Of a stretch of DNA of 44,058 nucleotides, positions 2,115-43,696 are shown piece after piece; the first letter of the stretch is position 1, and each line of letters opens with the position of its first letter. Source of the stretch: Bacteroidota bacterium (GTDB lineage: Bacteria > Bacteroidota > Bacteroidia > SXHM01); NCBI GenBank assembly GCA_947479755.1, contig CANKAM010000029.1, forward strand, positions 1-44,058, given 5' to 3'. The notes below the pieces were generated by a model that was not told where the DNA came from, ran no database searches, and saw only the letters and a list, made by a program, of their open reading frames with translations. Both the position numbers and the translations under genes were made by a program.

Positions 2115-4535
2115 TTATTTCACCAGCATCTTTCTGGTCACAGTATTAAACTCATTGCCAATACTGATAAAGTAAATTCCTGCTGCTGCAAGGGTATTAA
2201 GTGAAAATGCATTAGTTCCTTTTCCGAAGTTGATGCCTTTACTAATAAGCGTTTTGCCAACTGCATCAATAACAGTAATTGTATAATTGCCATTATGCGG
2301 AGCGTTTACATTCAGGTTGATATTGCCCTGTTCGTCTGTAGTTGCAAATGAAATAGCCAATTCATCCTCAGCACCACCACAGCTGACAGAAATGATGTTT
2401 GAATATTTTGATGATCCATCATAATCCGTTTGTTTCAGGCGGTAGTACGAAGTGCCTGCCAATGGTTTGTCATCTGTTGTAGTGTAACTGATAATGTAAT
2501 TGCTGTTGCTTGATCCTGCGATTGTTTTTAATACTTCAAACGAACTGGCATCTGTGCTTCTTTCAATAGTAAAGAAGTTGTTGTTGGTTTCCGATGCAGT
2601 TGTCCACTGAATTTCGGTTCTGTCGTTTTGGCAAGTAGCGTTGAAAGCAAGCAACTCAATTGGTAATGGGTTGCTGTCGTCCATCAAAGTCCATACACCA
2701 TTGTAGTCTTCAATAGTGCCAAGCACTACAGAAATGGTATTTGTAGTAGGTTGTGAAAATGCAGGACTTGTCAACCAGTCTGTCCACTCGTGCGAATCCT
2801 CATTGTAAGCGCGTACAATTAAACGATCTTTTTCAATGTGGTTTTCAACGCTTGTTAAATCAGCATCATTGTATTTGAACACATATTCAATCTGAGGGTA
2901 CGTGCTGAATGCCATATTCTCAATATTGTTTTCAATTACCCAGAAACGGTCAACTGCGCGGTGGTAAACTTCTTTGCCGGCAGCATTAGTCAGTTGATTT
3001 ACACCATCAGGAAGTGGGTAATTTTGTGCATTGGTGGGGTAGGTGATAAACTGAACTCTTCCCATCATTGAGCCTGTTCCCAAGGTATTAATGTTGTATT
3101 TAAAAGTCATGTCAGCCGAAACGGTTTCGTTTGTTCCGAAGGGCAGAACATAACTGCCGATGCGGTGTCCGATGTTCCAGTCCACAACACCGTAAGAGCC
3201 CGGAAAAGTTTCGCTGATGATGCGTCCGTTTTGTGCGGTGGTAATGGCATTGTTCATTGGGTTTTCAACAAACAAGGTCATCGTGTTCAGTGAAAGGCTT
3301 GCATTTTGAATATGCAGATTATTCAAAATTTTTATGTTGTTATACAGCGATGTTCTTCCACCGTTCAGAACAAGATTATAGAATTCCGTTTCGTTGCCGC
3401 CACCAATTACATGGTCAACACCGTTGATATGAATAGTTGAATTTCCTGCGTTGAAATTTGCGGAAGTGTTAGTAAGCAAATTACCTGAAAGATTTAGTTG
3501 ATTATCTTCCATGCTGAATGAACCGGTACTTGATATACTTAGATTTCCTGCGACAGTTAGTGAAGCAGTTTCCTGCATTTCCAGGTTTCCGCCATCAATA
3601 TCAAGATTGCCGCATATTGCATTTCCAGATAAAATTTCAAGTGTGTTTAACGCATCTGCATCAACAACGATATCTGTGTTTTGTGATGGAACTGAAAGGT
3701 CGTCCCAATTAGCACAATCAAACCAATCGCGGCTTCTGCTGCCATTCCATTTTCCTGAAATAGTTGTTCCTTGAATTTGAGAAATAGTTAATCCTGAAGA
3801 ATAGTTATTTCCTGATGTTGCAAACTCTGTGCTTCCGGAAAATGCTTCCCAATTCAAACTGTTATTTACGCGTTCAATCCATTCTTTTTGTGAAGCCGCT
3901 GAAAGTGAGCCTGTATATTTTAAGAAGTCAGATGCAGCACCCGAAAAGCTAAAGCAATCGGTTCCGGGATAAAGATTAGATTGATTAGAGGACCCATCGG
4001 CCACCCAACCCGATGCGGTGCTGAAGGAGTGAATTACTTTTCCATTGTTGTAGCTTGCATTGTTCATTCCTGAAGAGTTAGTCCATGCGCCACCTTGTAG
4101 GAAGAAAATCTGGTCGCCACCATTATTGATGTCAAAAGCATTTCCGCCATTTAAGTCAGTAAATTGCCATGAATTATCGGGAGAAACAGCAGAATAACTT
4201 CCGAAAGCAAGTCGAAAAGTAATAACTGTTCCAGCAGGAATGTCTGAACCTGTGCGGGCAATACGAATGGCTCCTTCGTTATCGCCCCATTGATTAGGGT
4301 TCTGACGTTCCCAGCCGTTGTCGGTGATTTCAAAAACAGTTCCGTTGGTAATGTCTTTAAAACAAACGAAACTAAGCTCATCTTCGCCCGAAATACCTGA
4401 AACAAGACCGTTGTCGGCATTTACTGCCAAGACAAGAATGTCTCCTTTTTCAAGTAGAGTGGGATTAGCTAAAGCCCCGCTGAGCGTGGCTAAAAGTAAG
4501 AATGAAGCTGCTGAAAGTTTTGTAAAAATTTTCAT
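2115..4535 (-). CDS. Large secreted protein with T9SS type A sorting domain
   Basis: About 806 residues. A signal peptide (MKIFTKLSAASFLLLATLSGALA) precedes a ~190-residue domain rich in acidic and aromatic residues, with repeated ITDNGW, FTDLNGGNAF and GDQIFFLQGG patterns. This type is often seen at the N-terminus of Bacteroidota surface proteins. A WNGSRSRDWFDCANWDD segment then opens a beta-helix-like region of polar repeats, followed by a second beta region. The tail (about the last 70 residues) has the T9SS pattern YTITVIDAVGKTL, LAAAGIYFISI and a final RKMLVK. I prefer the ATG at 4535 (MKIF) to upstream in-frame starts because it begins a normal signal peptide. Probably an exported, surface-attached or released protein; the ligand is unknown. 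Monocistronic by position. Confidence 0.8.
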   Translation of the reverse strand: MKIFTKLSAASFLLLATLSGALANPTLLEKGDILVLAVNADNGLVSGISGEDELSFVCFKDITNGTVFEITDNGWERQNPNQWGDNEGAIRIARTGSDIPAGTVITFRLAFGSYSAVSPDNSWQFTDLNGGNAFDINNGGDQIFFLQGGAWTNSSGMNNASYNNGKVIHSFSTASGWVADGSSNQSNLYPGTDCFSFSGAASDFLKYTGSLSAASQKEWIERVNNSLNWEAFSGSTEFATSGNNYSSGLTISQIQGTTISGKWNGSRSRDWFDCANWDDLSVPSQNTDIVVDADALNTLEILSGNAICGNLDIDGGNLEMQETASLTVAGNLSISSTGSFSMEDNQLNLSGNLLTNTSANFNAGNSTIHINGVDHVIGGGNETEFYNLVLNGGRTSLYNNIKILNNLHIQNASLSLNTMTLFVENPMNNAITTAQNGRIISETFPGSYGVVDWNIGHRIGSYVLPFGTNETVSADMTFKYNINTLGTGSMMGRVQFITYPTNAQNYPLPDGVNQLTNAAGKEVYHRAVDRFWVIENNIENMAFSTYPQIEYVFKYNDADLTSVENHIEKDRLIVRAYNEDSHEWTDWLTSPAFSQPTTNTISVVLGTIEDYNGVWTLMDDSNPLPIELLAFNATCQNDRTEIQWTTASETNNNFFTIERSTDASSFEVLKTIAGSSNSNYIISYTTTDDKPLAGTSYYRLKQTDYDGSSKYSNIISVSCGGAEDELAISFATTDEQGNINLNVNAPHNGNYTITVIDAVGKTLISKGINFGKGTNAFSLNTLAAAGIYFISIGNEFNTVTRKMLVK

Positions 4536-4638
4536 GGGCATAGTATTAGGATGCTGCAAGTTACGAAAAATACTTCAAAGTCAAGTATTTCTGTAGAATT
4601 TTTTCAACAAGAACCAGCAGTTATTAACTGCCTGAAAA

Positions 4639-5727
4639 CTATTTCAGTTTGATTTCGTGCAGTATTCCACCGGTTGTTGAACCATAAATAGTTGCTGAAA
4701 CACTTCCATCGTTGTAAAAATCGAGACGAAAGAATCCATTTTCCATATCGTTCATAAAGCCTGCTTTGTAGCGGTTTTTGTTGATGTGCGTGCGTTTGCT
4801 GCCCGATCCGCTTACAATGTGGGTATTAGTTCCGTCTTCAAAGTATTGCAACGTATGTTCGTGTCCGGCAACCACAATCAGGTGCTCATATTTATTGAAA
4901 GTGTTCAGCAATTTCGTGCGCATTTTATGGTAACGCGGCTGCGGCATATCCTGAACCAGCATTCGGTTTAACCCGATTAATCCGAAAAATTGCAGCGGCA
5001 TAAAATTTACTAAAGAGCGCAATGGCTCTAAACGATTGGAGTGATGCCCGTTGGTGAACATAGGATGATGCGCAGCAATAACCACTTTCTCGTTGTTGTT
5101 TTTTGCAGCATTGAGAAGGCTGTCTAATTCGCGGTAAAATTTCGCGGTGGTTTGTTTCCGGTTCATGCCAACGGCCTTTTGTGTTTTATGAAAAAACTGA
5201 CTTTGTAGCCACCATTGGGTGTCGATGGCAATAAGGCGGATTTTTTCTGTAAGCATCACTGAATAAGGACCGGGAAAACCATTCTGTGGAATAAAAGTAT
5301 GCTCGTTGCGGTTGCTGACTTCAGTGGTTTTAAAATATTCTTCAACGTAGCGCGCTTCTTCTTTTATGTATTTCAGTCCTTGCCATTTTCCCTGTTTCCA
5401 ATCGTGGTTGCCGGGAACAAAATACACTTGCCCTTTATAGGTTTTCAAGGGTTCAACCTGAGATAATAATCTTTTTGTAGAGAGCCTGCGTTTCTTTTCT
5501 GATTTGCTCAATGTTTCCAGGCCCTGCGGATAAATATTATCGCCCAGAAAAAGAATGGCGCTGTTGGGTTTTGTCAGTGCGTCTTGTTGCAACAAGGTCA
5601 TCGTTTGATTGGTAACGGTATCGTTTCCGGCATCGCCAATCAGGTAAACGGAGAAGTCTGGTGTTTGGGCAAATAGTGAGAAAGTGAGAAGGAGAGAAAG
5701 TGAGAAGGTAAGAGAGGTGTTTTTCAT
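4639..5727 (-). CDS. Secreted calcineurin-like metallophosphoesterase
   Basis: About 362 residues with an N-terminal signal peptide ending near SLFAQ. The metallophosphoesterase signature motifs appear in order: GDAGN near residue 33, LGDNIYP near 62, PGNHDW near 107, AAHHP near 220 and AGHEH near 290. These are the dinuclear metal ligands of the family, so a phosphomonoesterase or diesterase activity in the periplasm or outside the cell is likely; the substrate cannot be assigned. I use the second ATG (MKNTS). Oddly, the DNA that encodes the signal peptide is a run of AGTGAGAAGG-type words (about 5676-5712, read on the plus strand), described as a separate observation. Confidence 0.85.
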   Translation of the reverse strand: MKNTSLTFSLSLLLTFSLFAQTPDFSVYLIGDAGNDTVTNQTMTLLQQDALTKPNSAILFLGDNIYPQGLETLSKSEKKRRLSTKRLLSQVEPLKTYKGQVYFVPGNHDWKQGKWQGLKYIKEEARYVEEYFKTTEVSNRNEHTFIPQNGFPGPYSVMLTEKIRLIAIDTQWWLQSQFFHKTQKAVGMNRKQTTAKFYRELDSLLNAAKNNNEKVVIAAHHPMFTNGHHSNRLEPLRSLVNFMPLQFFGLIGLNRMLVQDMPQPRYHKMRTKLLNTFNKYEHLIVVAGHEHTLQYFEDGTNTHIVSGSGSKRTHINKNRYKAGFMNDMENGFFRLDFYNDGSVSATIYGSTTGGILHEIKLK

Positions 5728-14601: not shown

Positions 14602-15496
14602 GCTACTGACGATAGTGTTCTTTCTTGCCTTCTTCTCTGCATCTGCGCAGGAACTCAACTGTCAGGTGCAGGTTGTTTCACAACAGGTTCAGCAAAGCGA
14701 CCGCAGAATATTTGAAACGCTGCAAAAAGCCATTTACGAATTTGTGAATACCACCAAATGGACTAACGATCAATATCAGTTAACCGAACGTATTGAGTGC
14801 AGCATGTTCATCAATATTACAGAGCGTGTTTCGGCTGATGAATTTAAAGCTACCATTCAGGTTCAGAGCCGCAGACCTGTTTACAAAACTTCTTATAACT
14901 CAACTCTGCTCAACACCAACGATCAGGATTTTCAATTCAAATACATAGAGTTTCAACCTTTGCAGTTTTCTGAGGCTACCATGCTTTCAAACCTTACATC
15001 TGTGCTGGCATTTTATGCGTATATGATTATTGCTGTTGATTATGAATCGTATTCACCAAATGGCGGAGAGATTTATTTTCAGAAATCATTGGCAATAGTA
15101 AACAATGCTCAAGGCGCGGTTGAAAAAGGCTGGAAGCAATTTGAAAGCACCAACAATCGCTATTGGTTTATTGAGAATTTTCTAAATCCTCGTTTTAAAC
15201 TGATGCGTGAAAGTTATTACAAATACCATCGTCAGGGTATGGATGTAATGACTGGCGATATGGAAACCGGAAGACAGGCAATAACAGAGTGTTTGGAGAA
15301 TATTAAGAAAGTAAGAACGGATCAGCAAAATGCTTATCTCCTTAGGCTTTGGTTCAATGCCAAATCCGATGAATTGGTAAATATTTACTCCAGCGCTTTT
15401 CCCGATGTAAAGGCAAAAGTGGTTGCCATTCTTTCTGAAACAGATCCGGGCAATATCGCTAAGTACAAGAAAATTCTGACAACTAACAGTCAGTAG
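14594..15496 (+). CDS. porD: PorD-like protein (DUF4835) linked to type IX secretion
   Basis: 300 residues with a signal peptide (LLTIVFFLAFFSASA) and the mature start QELNCQVQVV. Internal landmarks are TTKWTNDQYQLTERIECSMFINIT, an SRRPVYKTSYNSTLLN strand, a FQFKYIEFQPLQFS segment and the helical DVESYSP-like region YDYESYSPNGGEIYF-equivalent near residue 150. The family is widespread in T9SS-bearing Bacteroidota, and its members are called PorD; a precise mechanistic role is not firmly established. The window encodes at least five T9SS cargo proteins, so the pathway is clearly in use. It overlaps coaBC and is followed after 15 bases by recN. Confidence 0.8.
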   Translation: MHKLLTIVFFLAFFSASAQELNCQVQVVSQQVQQSDRRIFETLQKAIYEFVNTTKWTNDQYQLTERIECSMFINITERVSADEFKATIQVQSRRPVYKTSYNSTLLNTNDQDFQFKYIEFQPLQFSEATMLSNLTSVLAFYAYMIIAVDYESYSPNGGEIYFQKSLAIVNNAQGAVEKGWKQFESTNNRYWFIENFLNPRFKLMRESYYKYHRQGMDVMTGDMETGRQAITECLENIKKVRTDQQNAYLLRLWFNAKSDELVNIYSSAFPDVKAKVVAILSETDPGNIAKYKKILTTNSQ

Positions 15497-15511
15497 TTTT
15501 TTAGAAAATTT

Positions 15512-17170
15512 ATGCTGAAACATCTCTCCATAAGCAACTATGCACTTATAGATAAGTTAGATGTTGATTTTGGTGAAAGCCTGACCATTCTTACAGGCGA
15601 AACTGGTGCAGGGAAATCCATTGTTGTAGATGCCCTGTCTATGGTTCTCGGACAACGTGCAGATGCAGGTGTGTTGCAAGATAAAACAAAGAAATCCATT
15701 GTAGAAGCAGTGTTTGATGTTTCGCCTTATAAGTTGGAGAAGTTTTTCAGTAAGAATGAACTCGATTACGAAAAACTGACCACCATTCGCAGAGAAATAA
15801 ATCCCGAAGGCAAATCAAGAGCGTTTGTAAATGATACTCCTGTAAATCTGAATTTGCTGCGCGAATTAACCTCGCGACTGATTGATATTCATTCGCAGCA
15901 CGAGGCGCTCACCTTAAAAGAACATTCGTTTCGTGTTGATTTGTTGGATGCAATGGCAGGAAATGAAAAACTGATTTTGGAATTCAGAAATGAATTGAAT
16001 CAATTCCGTTCGCTTAAAAAAGAACTGGATGATTTGTTGCAAATACAGGAACAGGCAAAGCGCGATGAAGATTATTTCAGTTTTCAGTATAATGAACTGG
16101 ATGAAGCCAAACTCACAGCAGGTGAGGAGGAGAGTGTTGAAAATGAATTATCGGTTTTATCACATGCCGAAGAAATAAAACAGAGCCTTTCAAATGCTGT
16201 TCTGGCGCTTTCTTCCGCTGATGAAAACATTCTTGTTTCACTGGAACAGGTTAGAAGTTTAGTTGCTCAAAGTTCAAAATATAACACTGCACTTTCCCCG
16301 CTTGCAGAGCGGATAAAAAGCGTTTTGATAGAGTTGAAAGACATTGCTGATGAATTGGAAACAGCAGAAGCCGATACCATTTTTGACCCTGCAAAAATGG
16401 AAGAGTTGAATGACAGAATTAATGTCATCAATCATCTGTTAAGTAAACACAGGCTGACAACAGCAGAAGAATTACTGAACTTAAAAAGTGAATTGGAAGG
16501 AAAATTGAAAGACATTTCATCTTACGATGATAAGATTTCAAAACTTAAAACAGAGTGGGAGGTAAGCAGGAAAAAAGTAAATGAACTCGCAACAATACTT
16601 TCTGAAAAACGAAAGAAAATTGCACCGCAACTCGAAAAGAAAGTTTGTGAGTTACTTGCTAAATTGGGTATTCCCAACGCTAAACTGGAAATAAAAATTT
16701 CTGCAAAGCCCGAGCCTGATGATTACGGAAAAGACAATGTGCTGTTTGAGTTTTCTGCCAACAAAGGCGAAACACTAAAAGAGTTGGATAAGGTGGCATC
16801 TGGTGGTGAGCTTTCACGTTTGATGTTGTCTTTTAAATCAATTCTTGCCGAACATAAAAATCTTCCTGCTATTGTTTTTGATGAAATTGACACAGGAGTT
16901 TCCGGTGAAATTGCCGGTAAGATGGGCACAATCATGAAAGGTATGTCGGTAAATATGCAGGTAATTGTGATTACGCATTTGCCTCAGATTGCGGGCAAGG
17001 GAGAATTTCATTTGCAGATTTACAAAGAAGAAAAAGCAGGTAAAACGTATACCCGTTTAAAGAAGTTAAGCAAGGACGAGCGCATTCTGGAGATTGCAAA
17101 AATGTTAAGTTCAGGAACGCCAACCGAAGCAGCTATTAAAAATGCAAAGGAGCTTTTAGTAAAGAATTAG
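15512..17170 (+). CDS. recN: DNA repair protein RecN
   Basis: 552 residues, the family's normal length. The Walker A motif G29-E-T-G-A-G-K-S36 lies in an SMC-type N-terminal half. A long coiled-coil region follows (about residues 150-380), and the C-terminal half has the signature ASGGELSRLMLSFKSI and the Walker B AIVFDEIDTGVSGEIA. RecN is an SMC-like ATPase that holds and brings together DNA ends for recombinational repair. It is the last conserved member of the bamD cluster; fabI follows after a short gap that contains a single arm of word-repeat family 1. Confidence 0.93.
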   Translation: MLKHLSISNYALIDKLDVDFGESLTILTGETGAGKSIVVDALSMVLGQRADAGVLQDKTKKSIVEAVFDVSPYKLEKFFSKNELDYEKLTTIRREINPEGKSRAFVNDTPVNLNLLRELTSRLIDIHSQHEALTLKEHSFRVDLLDAMAGNEKLILEFRNELNQFRSLKKELDDLLQIQEQAKRDEDYFSFQYNELDEAKLTAGEEESVENELSVLSHAEEIKQSLSNAVLALSSADENILVSLEQVRSLVAQSSKYNTALSPLAERIKSVLIELKDIADELETAEADTIFDPAKMEELNDRINVINHLLSKHRLTTAEELLNLKSELEGKLKDISSYDDKISKLKTEWEVSRKKVNELATILSEKRKKIAPQLEKKVCELLAKLGIPNAKLEIKISAKPEPDDYGKDNVLFEFSANKGETLKELDKVASGGELSRLMLSFKSILAEHKNLPAIVFDEIDTGVSGEIAGKMGTIMKGMSVNMQVIVITHLPQIAGKGEFHLQIYKEEKAGKTYTRLKKLSKDERILEIAKMLSSGTPTEAAIKNAKELLVKN

Positions 17171-37828: not shown

Positions 37829-38290
37829 TTAATTTGATGAAACAAACGTTTCGATGACTGAAATGATTGCTTTGATGGTCGCAACATTCATTTCGATGAC
37901 TGAAAAGATTGTTTTGATGGTCGCAACATTCATTTCGATGACTGAAAAGATTGTTTTTATGGTCGCAACATTCAGTTCGATGACTGAAAAGATTGTTTTT
38001 ATGGTCGCAACATTCATTTCGATGACTGAAGAGATTGTTTTGATGGTAGCAACATTCATTTCGATGACTGAAGAGATTGTTTTGATGGTCGCAACATTCA
38101 TTTTGATGATTGAAAAGATTGTTTTGATGGTCGCAACATTCATTTCGATGATTGAAAAGATTGTTTTGATGGTCGCAACATTCATTTTGATGACTGAAAT
38201 GATTGTTTTGATTGATGAAGTAATTACTTCGGTAATTTGATAAAGCGACTTAACGCTTAAGTGATTTCTTTTAGTATTCCAGTATGTCAA
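37829..38290 (-). CDS. Possible heptad-repeat peptide encoded by repeat tract 2
   Basis: An open frame of 153 residues built of alternating heptads MNVATIK and TIFSVIE (about 17 in total), a pattern that would form an amphipathic helix. It ends 45 bases before the 232-aa gene. As in module 1, the only full-length start is TTG (38290), and the first in-frame ATG is well inside the repeats. The plus strand also has an ATG-started frame (37854-38240, repeats MTEKIVLMVATFIS). So a coding role is uncertain, and the tract may work as DNA or RNA. Confidence 0.3.
   Translation of the reverse strand: MTYWNTKRNHLSVKSLYQITEVITSSIKTIISVIKMNVATIKTIFSIIEMNVATIKTIFSIIKMNVATIKTISSVIEMNVATIKTISSVIEMNVATIKTIFSVIELNVATIKTIFSVIEMNVATIKTIFSVIEMNVATIKAIISVIETFVSSN
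37851..38210. repeat. Tandem repeat tract, 42-bp period of two 21-bp half-units
   Basis: Half-units ATGACTGAAAAGATTGTTTT(G) and ATGGTCGCAACATTCATTTC(G) alternate, with about eight to nine 42-bp copies and few substitutions. There are no spacers. The sequence is unrelated to the tract at 9003-9196 but has the same 21-bp base period and the same position relative to its gene. Confidence 0.92.
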
Positions 38291-38969: not shown

Positions 38970-39033
38970 TAATAATATTATTTTATCCTCCAAATCCTCC
39001 ATACATTAATTAAATTTATTTACATTTACCAAG

Positions 39034-39113
39034 CCTGACCTTTATCAGGCTTATCCGCCCAAAAACGGAGGGATAGGCCTGATAACGTCAGGGGTATATA
39101 CAAGTTAGGCGTA
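39034..39113 (+). other. attC-like boundary element 1 (right core clear)
   Basis: A long stem: CCTGACCTTTATCAGGCTTA (TCC follows) at 39034-39056 pairs with 39071-39092. About ten bases after the stem is the core GTTAGGCGTA (39104-39113). GTTAGGC fits the integron core GTTRRRY, and the ten bases are the exact reverse complement of TACGCCTAAC at 41318-41327. No matching left core is visible upstream of the stem, so this site may be partial or a secondary insertion site. Confidence 0.45.
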
Positions 39114-39161
39114 ATGCTAGGACGACCCCACAGTATAAAATTACTTAATGCTCTGACATAA

Positions 39162-39860
39162 ATGAATATGGAAAAAAGTGATAATGAAACCATAAAAACC
39201 ATCAGCAAAAATGAAGGAGAACTAGGTTTTCTTAACCTTTTAATTATTATACTGTCATTTTATGTTTTGAGCTCACTATTAATTGAAACTTTCTTTACCC
39301 TTCCAAAAGAAATTTCAAAAGTGCTGAACTATGTAGACAATTTAATTTGTGTAATCTTTTTATTTGATTTTACTCTTCGTTTTAAAAAAGCTGAAAATAA
39401 ATTAAAATTCATGAAATGGGGTTGGATTGATTTAATCTCAAGTGTCCCAACTTTTGATTTCATGCGAGCCGGCCGGCTGCTTAGACTTATTAGATTAATA
39501 AGACTTATTCGTGCATTTCGCTCTACTAGACATATTGTAGAACATGTATTTAAAAATAAAATGCAAGGGACATTAACTTCTGTAACTATAATTTCTGTGC
39601 TTATGCTTTTGTTTTCATCAATCGCAATTTTGCAGTTTGAAACTGCTCCAAATAGTAATATTAAAACTGCTGAAGACGCTATTTGGTTTTCTTATTCTAC
39701 AATAACGACAGTTGGCTATGGCGACAAATATCCCGTTACGACCGAAGGACGAATCATTGCAGCGATATTAATGACTGTTGGAGTTGGTCTATTTGGAACA
39801 TTTACAGCATTTGTATCCTCTTGGTTTGTTAAAAGTGACCAGAACAATAAAAAAATATAA
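39162..39860 (+). CDS. Voltage-gated-type potassium channel
   Basis: 232 residues with six hydrophobic segments. The fourth carries a regular arginine series (RAGRLLRLIRLIRLIRAFRS), a voltage-sensor S4. A pore loop follows with the K+ selectivity filter T-V-G-Y-G-D at about residues 183-188 (ITTVGYGDKYP), then the last helix. This is a complete Kv-like bacterial channel without a C-terminal RCK domain. It starts 49 bases after the right core of the boundary element, and the DUF4041 gene follows after 18 bases. The pair therefore makes one transcription unit, with an AT-rich composition unlike the regulator region before it. Confidence 0.85.
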   Translation: MNMEKSDNETIKTISKNEGELGFLNLLIIILSFYVLSSLLIETFFTLPKEISKVLNYVDNLICVIFLFDFTLRFKKAENKLKFMKWGWIDLISSVPTFDFMRAGRLLRLIRLIRLIRAFRSTRHIVEHVFKNKMQGTLTSVTIISVLMLLFSSIAILQFETAPNSNIKTAEDAIWFSYSTITTVGYGDKYPVTTEGRIIAAILMTVGVGLFGTFTAFVSSWFVKSDQNNKKI

Positions 39861-39878
39861 ACCTAAATAAATAACTAT

Positions 39879-41294
39879 ATGATTATAGCAATTATTATTC
39901 TAACAGCCTGTGTCGTATTAATGACTTTTCTGTTTTTCAAAAAAGCGCAAGGATTGAAGCAGACCGAAACCGACCTGAATAATTTTAAAAATCAATATAA
40001 AGGAATTATTGATGTTGAAAAAGAGGTTGAAAAAAAGAATACAGAATTAAACACACTTAATCTAAACATTTCAACTTTAAGTACTGACTTCGCAAAACAA
40101 AAAGAACAATTAGGCCAAGATTTTAAAGCCAAAAGAGATGTCTTTGAAAAACTTTTAAAAGAAATTTCAATCCTTGAAGAAAACCTTGAAGATATTTCAT
40201 TTGGCTTATATAAACCTCATTATGACTATAAATCTTCGGAGGAATTCAAACAAAAGCTTGATGCCTTAAGAGAAAAACAAAAAGAAATAATTAAAAATGA
40301 AAAAGCAACAATTCTACCGACTGGACTAACATTGGGCGGTAGCGAATCAGAAGGTAAAAAAATGTCGTTGCAATATTCCAAAATAATGCTTCGTGCATTC
40401 AATGGCGAATGTGATTCTGCCATTGCTAAAGTTAGTTGGAATAATATGTCAAATATGGAGGCTCGCATTGAAAAAGCATTTGAAGCAATAAATAAACTTG
40501 GGACAAAACTTGGAATTTCAATTGCACAAAATTATTATGAAATTAAATTGGAAGAATTAAGATTAGAATTCGAACTAGAGGAAAAAGTTTATCAAGAAAA
40601 AGAGGAGCAGAGAAAAATCAGAGAACAAATGCGTGAAGAAGAGAAGGTTTTGAAGGAAATTGAAAAGGCTCAAAAAGACGCAGAGGCGGAAGAAGTTCGT
40701 TATCAAAAAGCATTAGAAAAAGCAAAATCGGAAGTTGAAAAAGCAAAGGGAGCTGAACTTGACAAGTTGAATGAAAAAATAAAGCAACTAGAAGGTAGTT
40801 TAGAAAAAGCTCACGAACAAAAAGAAAGAGCAATTTCACAAGCTCAATTAACTAAATCGGGACACGTTTACATAATTTCAAATATAGGTTCGTTTGGCGA
40901 ACACGTTTATAAAATTGGAATGACAAGACGACTTGAACCACTTGATAGAGTTAAAGAACTTGGTGATGCATCTGTTCCATTTGACTTTGATGTACATGGA
41001 ATGATTTATTCAGACAATGCTCCAGGATTAGAAAATACATTACACAGACATTTAGAAAGTAAACGACTTAATTTAGTAAATAGTAGAGCTGAATTTTTCC
41101 AAACGACAATTGACGAAATTGAACAAATTATTAAAGAATTTAATCTTACAGTTACGTTGACAAAACTTGCAGAGGCGAGAGAGTATAGAGAAACTGTTGC
41201 GCTGCGACAAGCAAAAACTTCAAACGGTCAGGTGGGTGAAAACAAAACACAAATAGAAAAAGAGCTTCAAAAATTTCCAACTTCCCTCGACTAA
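39879..41294 (+). CDS. DUF4041 and GIY-YIG (T5orf172-type) protein with N-terminal membrane helix
   Basis: 471 residues. A hydrophobic N-terminal helix (IIAIIILTACVVLMTFLFF) anchors the protein. A coiled coil (about 30-95), the DUF4041 block (EENLEDISFGLYKPHYDYKS, MSLQYSKIMLRAFNGECDSA, GISIAQNYYEIKLEELRLEF) and a second long coiled coil follow. At ~325-430 comes a GIY-YIG nuclease domain of the T5orf172/MUG113 type: SGHVYIISNIG, VYKIGMTRRLEPLDRVKEL and LENTLHRHLESKRLNLVN, with the later EFF. DUF4041 with this nuclease is a common phage-linked or defence-island architecture. The membrane helix is an unusual addition. Confidence 0.85.
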   Translation: MIIAIIILTACVVLMTFLFFKKAQGLKQTETDLNNFKNQYKGIIDVEKEVEKKNTELNTLNLNISTLSTDFAKQKEQLGQDFKAKRDVFEKLLKEISILEENLEDISFGLYKPHYDYKSSEEFKQKLDALREKQKEIIKNEKATILPTGLTLGGSESEGKKMSLQYSKIMLRAFNGECDSAIAKVSWNNMSNMEARIEKAFEAINKLGTKLGISIAQNYYEIKLEELRLEFELEEKVYQEKEEQRKIREQMREEEKVLKEIEKAQKDAEAEEVRYQKALEKAKSEVEKAKGAELDKLNEKIKQLEGSLEKAHEQKERAISQAQLTKSGHVYIISNIGSFGEHVYKIGMTRRLEPLDRVKELGDASVPFDFDVHGMIYSDNAPGLENTLHRHLESKRLNLVNSRAEFFQTTIDEIEQIIKEFNLTVTLTKLAEAREYRETVALRQAKTSNGQVGENKTQIEKELQKFPTSLD

Positions 41295-41317
41295 TGGCCG
41301 ACCGAAGTAAAAGCACA

Positions 41318-41454
41318 TACGCCTAACACGGGTTTTGCGTTAGTGGGCGGACAGTGCGAATAGAAACATTTGAGCAATTAATAAACTTTGGTGCTGGCAG
41401 ACAGTTTTCGGTTTCAAAAGCCCACCAACGCAAAGCCCGAAACCGTTAGCAGAA
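41318..41454 (+). other. attC-like site between cassettes, complete
   Basis: 137 bp. The left side is TACGCCTAAC (41318-41327), then CGGGTTTTGCGTTAGTGGGC (41329-41348); the right side is GCCCACCAACGCAAAGCCCG (41420-41439), AAACC, then GTTAGCAGAA (41445-41454). The inner arms pair almost completely, while the bases between core and arm (A and AAACC) do not, like the unpaired central spacer of attC sites. GCCTAAC fits RYYYAAC; GTTAGCA fits GTTRRRY only in its first five bases. The left core complements the core of the element before it, and the right core complements the one after it. Confidence 0.6.
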
Positions 41455-41506
41455 ATTTTACGAACCATTAGCCCACATTAACACAGACAACAGACTTTAA
41501 GAAATA

Positions 41507-41581
41507 ATGAGAGACCCAAAGTACCCTGACGCGTATCTCTACTACGAAACCCATCAAAATAAAATTAAGATTATCTTTTGA
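41507..41581 (+). CDS. Short open frame at the head of cassette 2
   Basis: 24 codons from ATG 41507 (MRDPKYPDAYLYYETHQNKI, then KIIF and TGA). The biased Tyr/Pro content looks like coding sequence, and may be the truncated N-terminus of an older cassette gene or a leader peptide. I cannot assign it, and it may be chance. Confidence 0.2.
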   Translation: MRDPKYPDAYLYYETHQNKIKIIF

Positions 41582-41618
41582 ACCGTATTTGTAATTTCAC
41601 GAAGTTAAAAACAGATAA

Positions 41619-43511
41619 ATGACAAATTTTTTAGATAGATTTATTAGTGATTACTCTTCTGAAAAAAGTTTTGAAAAGAAGATTGATATTCTTTTGGAGT
41701 TTATTAATTACTATTATGATTCAGATTTTGAAAGGGTAAATATACTTCTTGAAAAAGAACTTGAGCTCTTTAAAAATAAAAACTCTAATAAGGACGGCCA
41801 GACTTTGATTCGGTTTATGTTTGCTTATTCTTACTTCGAGAGAGGTAACTTTAAAAGAGGCGAACAGGAAATGAAAGCTGTAATGGAAATTTTTGATAAT
41901 ATAAAGCATCCTGAAATAAAAGCACAGATATTACATTTTCTTGCCTTTTTTCATTCCCATCAGGGAAATTTTGATAAAGCATTTGAGTATTGTTATGCAT
42001 CTATAAAAGAAGGAGAGAAAGCAATCAGCAAAAAAAATGTGTATTGGGGACCTTACACTCTTGGTGTTTTATATTTTGATTTAAAAGACTTTGAGAATTC
42101 TGAAAAATTTTATAACGAAGCATTACAGGGGTTTATTAAATACGATAATCCGTATGGAGTAGCACGTAGCGAAACAGGATTGTCATCTGTATATATCCAA
42201 TATGAAAAATATATGGAAGCAGAAAAATTATTGCAGCGTTCGTTGGAATATTATACAGTAATTCAAGTCACATCAGGACAATCGCGCTCGCTAAATGACC
42301 TTGGTGTAATATCCCGTAAAACAGGAAAACCGGATAAAGCATTGGAATATTATAAACAGGCATTGAAGTTGAGAAAAGAAACCAACCATTCTCAGGGCGT
42401 TGCTACTTCTCTCAACGAAATTTCGGAAGTGCTTCTTGAAATGAAAGAGTACGGGCAGGCGGAGCAATATTTACTGGAAGCAAAGGAAGCCTGCGAAAAA
42501 ATACATAATAGAGCTAAACTATATCGTAATCATTATTTGTTTTCGCAATTATACAGGAATACCAATGAACCCTGGAAAGCTCTTGAACACTTTGATTTGT
42601 TTGAAAAATTAAAATCACAAGTTGTAGGAGAAGCTGCTAACAATAAAATAAAAGAGTTGCAAACCCGAATGGCAACTGAGAAAGCCGAAAATGAAAAAGA
42701 GATAGAACGTTTAAAAAATGTAGAAATAAAAAAAGCTTATGTCATTATTGAAGAAAAACAAAAAGAAATATTAAACAGTATAGAATATGCTTTGCGTATA
42801 CAAACCGCAATACTACCGCCACAACGCATGGTGAAACAATATTTAGAAAAGTCGTTTATACTTTATAAACCAAAAGACATCGTAGCTGGAGATTTTTATT
42901 GGATGGAAATCGTTAATGATTTGGTTTTATTTGCAGCTTGCGATTGCACGGGACACGGAGTGCCAGGGGCTATGGTTTCAGTAGTTTGTCATAATGCGCT
43001 TAACAGAGCAGTAAGAGAATTCGGTTTAACTCAACCAGCCGCAATACTTGACAAGACTGCGGAATTAGTAATAGAAAACTTTTCTAATAGCGAAGAAAAA
43101 ATAAAAGATGGAATGGATATTTCTCTTTGTGCTTACAACTCTAAAACAAAAACAATTCAATGGGCAGGGGCTAACAACGCTTTATGGTTATTACAAAACG
43201 GAGAACTCATAGTAACTAAAGCAGACAAGCAACCCATCGGAATGAATGATGACAAGAAGCCTTTTACAAACCATACATTCACGCTCAACAACGGAGATAC
43301 AATATATCTATTCACAGACGGTTTCGCAGATCAGTTTGGTGGTGACAAGAAAGAAAAAAAACTTACAAGAAAAAGATTTAAAGAACAGTTATTATTAATT
43401 CAAAACAAATCCTTGCAGGAACAAGGAATTGCGTTAGACAATTTCATAACAGAATATAGAAAATCAGTAGAACAAATAGACGACATACTTGTTATGGGCG
43501 TGAAAATATGA
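41619..43511 (+). CDS. TPR-SpoIIE (PP2C-type) serine phosphatase
   Basis: 630 residues, soluble. The N-terminal ~340 residues are TPR repeats (YSYFERGNFKRGEQEMKAVM, LGVLYFDLKDFENSEKFYNE, LSSVYIQYEKYMEAEKLLQR, LGVISRKTGKPDKALEYYKQ). A coiled coil (~350-400) precedes the SpoIIE phosphatase: RIQTAILPPQRMVKQYLEKS, LYKPKDIVAGDFYWMEIVND, ACDCTGHGVPGAMVSVVCHN, and a last motif DGFADQFGGDKKEKK. These hold the metal-binding D residues. It lacks the membrane sensors seen in many relatives, so input probably comes through the TPR part. It would dephosphorylate an anti-anti-sigma or similar partner, not found here. It is the only real gene of cassette 2. Confidence 0.88.
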   Translation: MTNFLDRFISDYSSEKSFEKKIDILLEFINYYYDSDFERVNILLEKELELFKNKNSNKDGQTLIRFMFAYSYFERGNFKRGEQEMKAVMEIFDNIKHPEIKAQILHFLAFFHSHQGNFDKAFEYCYASIKEGEKAISKKNVYWGPYTLGVLYFDLKDFENSEKFYNEALQGFIKYDNPYGVARSETGLSSVYIQYEKYMEAEKLLQRSLEYYTVIQVTSGQSRSLNDLGVISRKTGKPDKALEYYKQALKLRKETNHSQGVATSLNEISEVLLEMKEYGQAEQYLLEAKEACEKIHNRAKLYRNHYLFSQLYRNTNEPWKALEHFDLFEKLKSQVVGEAANNKIKELQTRMATEKAENEKEIERLKNVEIKKAYVIIEEKQKEILNSIEYALRIQTAILPPQRMVKQYLEKSFILYKPKDIVAGDFYWMEIVNDLVLFAACDCTGHGVPGAMVSVVCHNALNRAVREFGLTQPAAILDKTAELVIENFSNSEEKIKDGMDISLCAYNSKTKTIQWAGANNALWLLQNGELIVTKADKQPIGMNDDKKPFTNHTFTLNNGDTIYLFTDGFADQFGGDKKEKKLTRKRFKEQLLLIQNKSLQEQGIALDNFITEYRKSVEQIDDILVMGVKI

Positions 43512-43529
43512 CACGAAAAAAGACAAAAC

Positions 43530-43566
43530 TTCTGCTAACAGCGGGTTTAAGAAATTGGCGGTTCAG
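43530..43566 (+). other. attC-like boundary element 3 (left core only)
   Basis: TTCTGCTAAC (43530-43539), the exact reverse complement of GTTAGCAGAA at 41445-41454, is followed by AGCGGGTTTAAGAAATTGGC and GGTTCAGTGG, an arm like those of the complete site. I find no complementary right arm before the next gene, so the right half is missing or rearranged. Confidence 0.4.
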
Positions 43567-43696
43567 TGGTTAATAAGAAATGACAAAGCCGACAAACACG
43601 GAAACCTGTAAATTGCAACATTGTTGGAAATTAATTAAAAATAAACGGGGAAGCCGAAAACCGAACAGAGTAGGCAAAAAAAATAAACTCAACACT

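Follow-up and report, generated by a model that had tools for sequence, protein, structure and literature searches.

The window, by which we mean the whole 44,058-nt stretch of Bacteroidota DNA that was analyzed, carries three ORFs set between boundary elements, all of them on the forward strand. The features of this region were as follows.

39021..39103, + strand: orphan attI (element 1), two hairpins and then TATATACAA immediately 5' of GTT
39104..39113, + strand: start core of cassette 1, GTTAGGCGTA, reverse complement of 41318-41327
39104..41444, + strand: cassette 1, with cross-paired ends, GTT after the attI and attC at its end (insertion point assumed to be G^TT)
39162..39860, + strand: ORF of 232 aa in cassette 1, ion-channel family (Ion_trans, Ion_trans_2)
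39879..41294, + strand: ORF of 471 aa in cassette 1, DUF4041 and a T5orf172/MUG113 nuclease-type domain
41318..41327, + strand: end core of cassette 1 (R''), TACGCCTAAC, cross-paired with 39104-39113
41323..41449, + strand: complete attC hairpin (element 2), 117 nt core to core; 114.1 bits with the covariance model R1, whose 33 training sequences include it
41445..41454, + strand: start core of cassette 2 (R'), GTTAGCAGAA, reverse complement of 43530-43539
41445..43534, + strand: cassette 2, with cross-paired ends
41619..43511, + strand: ORF of 630 aa in cassette 2, TPR repeats and a SpoIIE-type phosphatase
43530..43569, + strand: truncated attC (element 3), R'' (TTCTGCTAAC at 43530-43539) and left arm alone, right arm gone; 15.8 bits, E 0.85

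In both cassettes, the start and end cores were exact reverse complements over 10 nt. When the whole window was scanned for GTTAG...CTAAC pairs lying 100-5000 nt apart, these two were the only ones with at least 9 complementary nt, which confirms the exact complementarity across cassettes that an earlier note on this DNA had claimed. The three boundary elements that it described were present as well, but they are not of one kind: element 1 resembles an attI, element 2, which had been taken as attC-like, is a complete attC (114 bits, as a member of the training set), and element 3 is truncated, its left arm CTAACAGCGGGTTTAAGAAATTGGCGGTTCAGTG being identical to that of the complete attC L031:9882. 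No recombinase was found on the contig of the window, and the matches of the integron-integrase model fell on other contigs of the genome. The idea that there is no local integrase thus holds for the window, but not for the system, whose recombinases are encoded elsewhere. We read the window as an attI followed by two cassettes that lie apart from any integrase, with the last attC damaged. Because no recombinase is present there and the third site is truncated, this array may be inactive.

Two further features of the window were observed. Tandemly repeated, low-complexity ORFs lie near the attI (37829-38290), and ORFs of the same kind were seen near both intact recombinases (L002 227-727; L013 2848-3291). 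Additionally, the cis-regulatory Rfam motifs DUF805b and DUF805 were matched at 43644-43676 in the window, soon after the truncated attC, and at 14204-14271 in L068, between two attC sites. These motifs may be cassette-borne; they were absent from ten further loci examined.

We searched the genome of origin by model, DNA, pattern and family. It encodes two intact tyrosine recombinases, on contigs C38 and C57, each with an attI and a cassette start just downstream. The C38 gene stops about 100 nt 5' of TATATACAA-GTTAAGG, and downstream of the C57 gene is a cassette whose ends cross-pair over 9 nt. Furthermore, C25 and C105 each harbor the remnant of a recombinase together with an attI and a cassette that has a 10-nt cross pair, and C27 carries another cassette with a 10-nt cross pair. 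The attC model matched seven sites in this genome (the window, C27, C25, C101, C46, C105 and a shorter one on C15), of which only the window site belonged to the training set. The search that the earlier note had proposed, for further elements obeying the cross-pair rule and for tyrosine recombinases, was thus positive on both counts: such elements were found in the same genome and throughout the Bacteroidia, and the recombinases are accompanied by attI sites and cassettes. A pattern match on C36 lay inside a coding region and was discarded as chance. The recombinase on C46 was rejected as an array integrase, being part of an IS91-like element and separate in the tree. The same end of this type of element adjoins two attC bodies that differ from each other, with the junction falling precisely after ...GTGCAACA, as though the attC core were targeted (G000 C46:25443-25569, corresponding to L118 7444-7570, and C101:5350-5477, in L150); on C46, the element includes a transposase as well as a tyrosine recombinase of its own.

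Element 1 and the attI located directly 3' of an intact recombinase in L026 shared 90% identity over 97 nt. In a genome of the same genus (G003), the identity to the attI was 92% over 106 nt, and 97% over 86 nt in a second search, while the attI of C38 in the same genome as the window was 72% identical. Contig C1 of G003 carries a single attI copy followed by GTTAGTGGCAAGG where the window has GTTAGGCGTAATG, and contig C2 of G003 carries an intact recombinase with its attI and two cross-paired cassettes. By their sequences, contig C1 of G003 and the window represent one docking site with different cargo starting at the GTT; the proposed check in relatives thus revealed the attI of the window joined to another cassette within the genus.

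To define the site more broadly, we used 80 named Bacteroidota loci from one scan, three of them from two Ignavibacteria MAGs, plus four others, and looked for a TATAAACAA-like GTT 40-150 nt past the recombinase match. Such a site was found in 68 of the 84 recombinase loci, with TATAAAYRA^GTT about 100 nt 3' of the stop codon. The attI consensus was TATAAAYRA-GTTR, and position 11 of the cassette was an A in 98%. This is close to the end of the class 1 attI1 (CTAAAACAAA-GTTAGGC). As in canonical integrons, the attI adjoins the integrase gene and the cassettes are joined at GTT. The Cyclobacteriaceae genome ACE_BAC8 contains several near-identical attI sites, each next to a recombinase remnant and followed by a different cassette (L029, L091, L092, L093, L095 and L096).

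We then compared the recombinases with known families. With the integron-integrase model TIGR02249, the array recombinases scored 209.6 and 208.5 bits, below the cut-off of 265; with the XerA model NF040815, they scored 223.8 and 220.9 bits, a marginal pass at a cut-off of 220. The spacing between the GKGxKxR and HxLRH motifs was 58-59 residues in every array recombinase measured, compared to 100 residues in 9/9 IntI, IntI1 included. Judged from sequence, the array recombinases are missing the IntI-specific additional domain near patch III. In 28 aligned recombinases, R205, K230, H295 and H321 were invariant, and the HxLRH and IYTHV motifs were conserved. In the tree, IntI formed a single clade (100/99) with the array recombinases outside, and the latter formed a moderately supported group (93/86) that includes the tet(X3) and VEB fragments described below. 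Among solved structures, the predicted recombinase model (pLDDT 82.6) best matched the integron integrase 2A3V, a further likeness to integrons, with XerA second.

At the N terminus, the array recombinases also harbor an additional domain, about 60 residues long, in which F, WS and W are conserved. For 8 of 20 members, this domain resembles DUF5710 (best E 2e-4). The first solved-structure match of its predicted fold was the HARP domain of SMARCAL1 (E 0.68), which ranked fourth with the sequence profile (E 1.5); given these weak statistics, the prediction is only suggestive of a kinship to HARP.

The enzymes share with XerA-type recombinases (NF040815; 5HXY, 4A8E) a domain layout without the IntI insert and a score barely at the cut-off. 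However, they are tied to attI sites and cassette arrays and form a distinct group in the tree, and the adjacent attI and cassette arrays argue against action at a single chromosomal dif site, as in the XerA type.

The attC sites were obtained by chaining cassettes, and 33 of them were aligned. Their spacer lengths were concentrated at 114-121 nt, with a hairpin of about 117 nt between the cores. Compensatory changes were found at 18/18 predicted pairs, and 93% of the alignment cells were paired, compared to 58% when shuffled and 33-40% when the partners were slid. AACA and CGTT were invariant. The attC is thus an imperfect inverted repeat that is conserved in structure rather than in sequence, as in integrons. 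Since arm complementarity was used to choose the sites for the model, they are biased to high pairing; this concern is limited by the slid and shuffled controls and by the matches outside the training set. The latter numbered 56: 48 were on the recombinase strand and downstream, 5 were upstream and 3 were on the opposite strand, although more sequence was searched upstream (510 kb) than downstream (303 kb). No attC-like Rfam family matched here. In the second core, GTTR was found in 79/80 sites and GTTRRRY in 7/80, which bears out the departure from GTTRRRY noticed in the window. One attC-model match in L077 (15740-15867) is surrounded by pieces of group II intron sequence (15334-16766, minus strand), an arrangement that recalls introns inserting at attC.

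Compared with integrons such as the class 1 integron of R388, the system has an integrase gene, an adjacent attI, tandem same-strand cassettes, a 3' hairpin attC and insertion at GTT. Unlike in integrons, its integrase lacks the additional domain, falls under the IntI cut-off, bears the extra N-terminal domain and is encoded upstream of the cassettes on their strand; the second core is GTTR plus variable bases rather than GTTRRRY, and the cassette-end stem is extended, with an unpaired A at position 11. One could consider that the cassettes derive from an ordinary IntI that has since been lost (CALIN). The general architecture is indeed shared with canonical integrons, and canonical IntI occur in other classes of the phylum, with 84 of 296 genomes sampled phylum-wide over the cut-off. 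However, just one of these (G093) is labelled as the same class, and in the genome of the window, no canonical IntI passed the cut-off of the integron-integrase model. Moreover, the attC model gave no match at E<=0.1 beside canonical IntI genes, for which mostly short flanks were searched, or in R388; GTTRRRY cores are rare; and in dozens of loci the attI and attC sites accompany the recombinase without the insert. We consider an origin from a lost IntI very unlikely.

Still less probable are dif-type modules (pdif cassettes) that depend on the host XerC/XerD. The recombinase is simple and Xer-like, lacks the IntI insert and is narrowly over the NF040815 cut-off, as one would expect of such a system. 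However, pdif modules are distinguished by their boundary layout, having short dif-like sites, whereas here the boundaries are an attI or hairpins of about 127 nt and the attI is bound to a dedicated recombinase gene. The genome also encodes separate Xer-type proteins (C13, C2), and the C13 protein groups with E. coli XerC/XerD, away from the array recombinases.

We next analyzed the cassette ends. Cross-pair counts by trinucleotide core over all pairs were dominated by AT-rich cores, which left only a weak signal, and they were replaced by a partner test anchored at the attI, which covered the 43 attI starts with sufficient sequence. Of the 43 attI GTTs, 25 (58%) had a partner that was complementary over at least 9 nt and lay no more than 2.6 kb away, compared to 64 (2.6%) of the 2504 GTTs that served as controls from these loci. 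For the roughly 40% of tested attI starts with no such partner in this range, contig ends and long or eroded cassettes are possible causes. We then examined positions beyond those used for selection, the cassettes having been selected on positions 1-8 or 1-9 only. Position 11 paired rarely (4%), positions 12-15 had a mean pairing of 0.66 compared to about 0.35 with ends shuffled among cassettes (0/1000), and positions 16-18 were at background. Pairing of R'', the left core, with the R' of the next cassette was no higher than shuffled. Because positions 12-15 pair within the cassette and R'' pairs with the next R' only at the shuffled level, the complementarity belongs to the cassette circle. 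This is what integron-type insertion would predict, and it agrees with the earlier suggestion that complementarity across a cassette is the trace of such insertion. The reading of the hairpins as terminators or REP-like repeats with coincidental cross-pairing, to which their position 3' of genes on the same strand would lend itself, is refuted by the partner test, by the complementarity of positions 12-15, tied to the cassette rather than to the site, and by the same attI being followed by different sequence from the GTT on.

Chained cassettes form tandem arrays on the same strand, mostly with a single ORF, as in integrons. The longest ORF was on the array strand in 52 cassettes and on the opposite strand in 4, and 7 cassettes had none. 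The attC body of element 2 recurs in many Bacteroidia genomes, mostly with 90-99% identity, ending at or a few bases from the cores. In 12 copies that we compared (94-99%; other genera and families), the upstream ORFs were unrelated, and 8 of them had their own, different 10-nt core pair. Arrays were also found on plasmids in Chryseobacterium and Pontibacter. The Chryseobacterium plasmid array (L021) contains three copies, from 7140, 9235 and 11616, of a gene-less repeat of about 170 nt starting GTTGGGAAAAATCGCCC, each of which starts at a GTT boundary.

The sequences thus display an attI adjacent to the recombinase, tandem same-strand cassettes and covariation in the attC, as well as one attI with different cassettes and one attC with different genes. 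From this, we conclude with high confidence that the system works like an integron, and that the region is very probably (roughly 93%) a small array of cassettes, belonging to a Bacteroidia-type integron, that became detached from its integrase. We infer that the cassettes recombine with the attI and attC sites. In the proposed mechanism, a recombinase such as those of C38 and C57 would insert circular cassettes, each ending 3' in a single attC hairpin, at the G^TT of the attI about 100 nt 3' of its own gene. In the free circle, the left core of the attC and the cassette start would form a perfect stem of 9-10 bp, followed by an unpaired A11 and about 4 more pairs. Insertion at the GTT would then divide this stem between the two ends of the cassette, giving the complementarity across it, and the window would have been left with the attI and two cassettes, the last attC minus its right arm. 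Catalysis by the array recombinase, cleavage at this exact point and the use of a folded, single-stranded attC are presumed in this scheme.

One argument against such a Bacteroidia integron is that its recombinases lack the insert. A study of archaeal integrons (PMC9668308) describes integron recombination as requiring the IntI additional domain, and the title of Messier and Roy 2001 likewise calls the IntI-specific insert necessary. According to the archaeal study, these integrons resemble the present system in having an attI directly 3' of the integrase gene and arrays of hairpin attC, but their IntIs are reported to have the additional domain. Because the enzymes lack the IntI domain and the cores seldom match GTTRRRY, the system is set apart from canonical integrons, and the earlier guess of a divergent integron class fits these two properties. 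More tentatively, the Bacteroidia might possess a separate integron class of their own, in which the additional domain would be dispensable, folded attC sites would be recognized by other parts of the enzyme, possibly the HARP-like N-terminal domain, and from which resistance genes may have been delivered out of the Bacteroidota; this broader proposal is possible but doubtful.

Of 296 Bacteroidia genomes, 110 gave a recombinase match at E<=1e-70, as did 69 of 166 genera; these figures count recombinases and not arrays. We found no published description of this system in the open-access literature. Standard integron surveys would miss it, since its recombinase lacks the domain normally used for recognition. 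A 2008 survey picked integrases by the additional domain (PMC2426708), and IntegronFinder 2.0 gave for the Bacteroidetes a single complete integron, that of Salinibacter ruber, and apart from it only In0 elements (PMC9024848). In passages of a tyrosine recombinase survey, the insert is incompletely conserved in an integron-like subgroup (PMC8138268), so members without the insert are perhaps already in its data; the same passages give no attI, attC or cassettes for them. If our reading is correct, a cassette-capture platform in roughly one-third of the sampled Bacteroidia genomes has been overlooked, integron-type cassette capture would not require the IntI additional domain, and the arrays would represent a new reservoir of mobile genes.

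Fragments of array-group recombinases were also observed next to resistance genes on plasmids. On an IncC plasmid of Klebsiella michiganensis (L132), a recombinase fragment (3142-3753) is followed by about 75 nt, GTTAGCGGTAA and then blaVEB-3 (3864-4763); we looked for an attC after blaVEB-3 on L132 and found none. Similarly, Acinetobacter plasmids carry, immediately 5' of tet(X3), a truncated recombinase with 54% identity to C57 over 227 aa (fragment and gene at 1651-2316 and 2506-3672 in L131, and at 4151-4816 and 5006-6172 in L152); this is the known xerD-tet(X3) context. Because truncated enzymes lie directly upstream of tet(X3) and blaVEB-3, resistance genes may have left the Bacteroidota by way of this system. 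If our reading of the system is correct, the part of the adjacent xerD in mobilizing tet(X), a question posed in a passage of PMC7473080, becomes testable. Not all xerD-tet(X) neighborhoods fit, the xerD next to tet(X14) in E. stercoris being oppositely oriented. On the 3' side of tet(X3), the sequence CTAACAAGCAGTTTTGCAATAGTGGGGCAG... resembles the left half of an attC, with a weak model score (18 bits, E 0.26).
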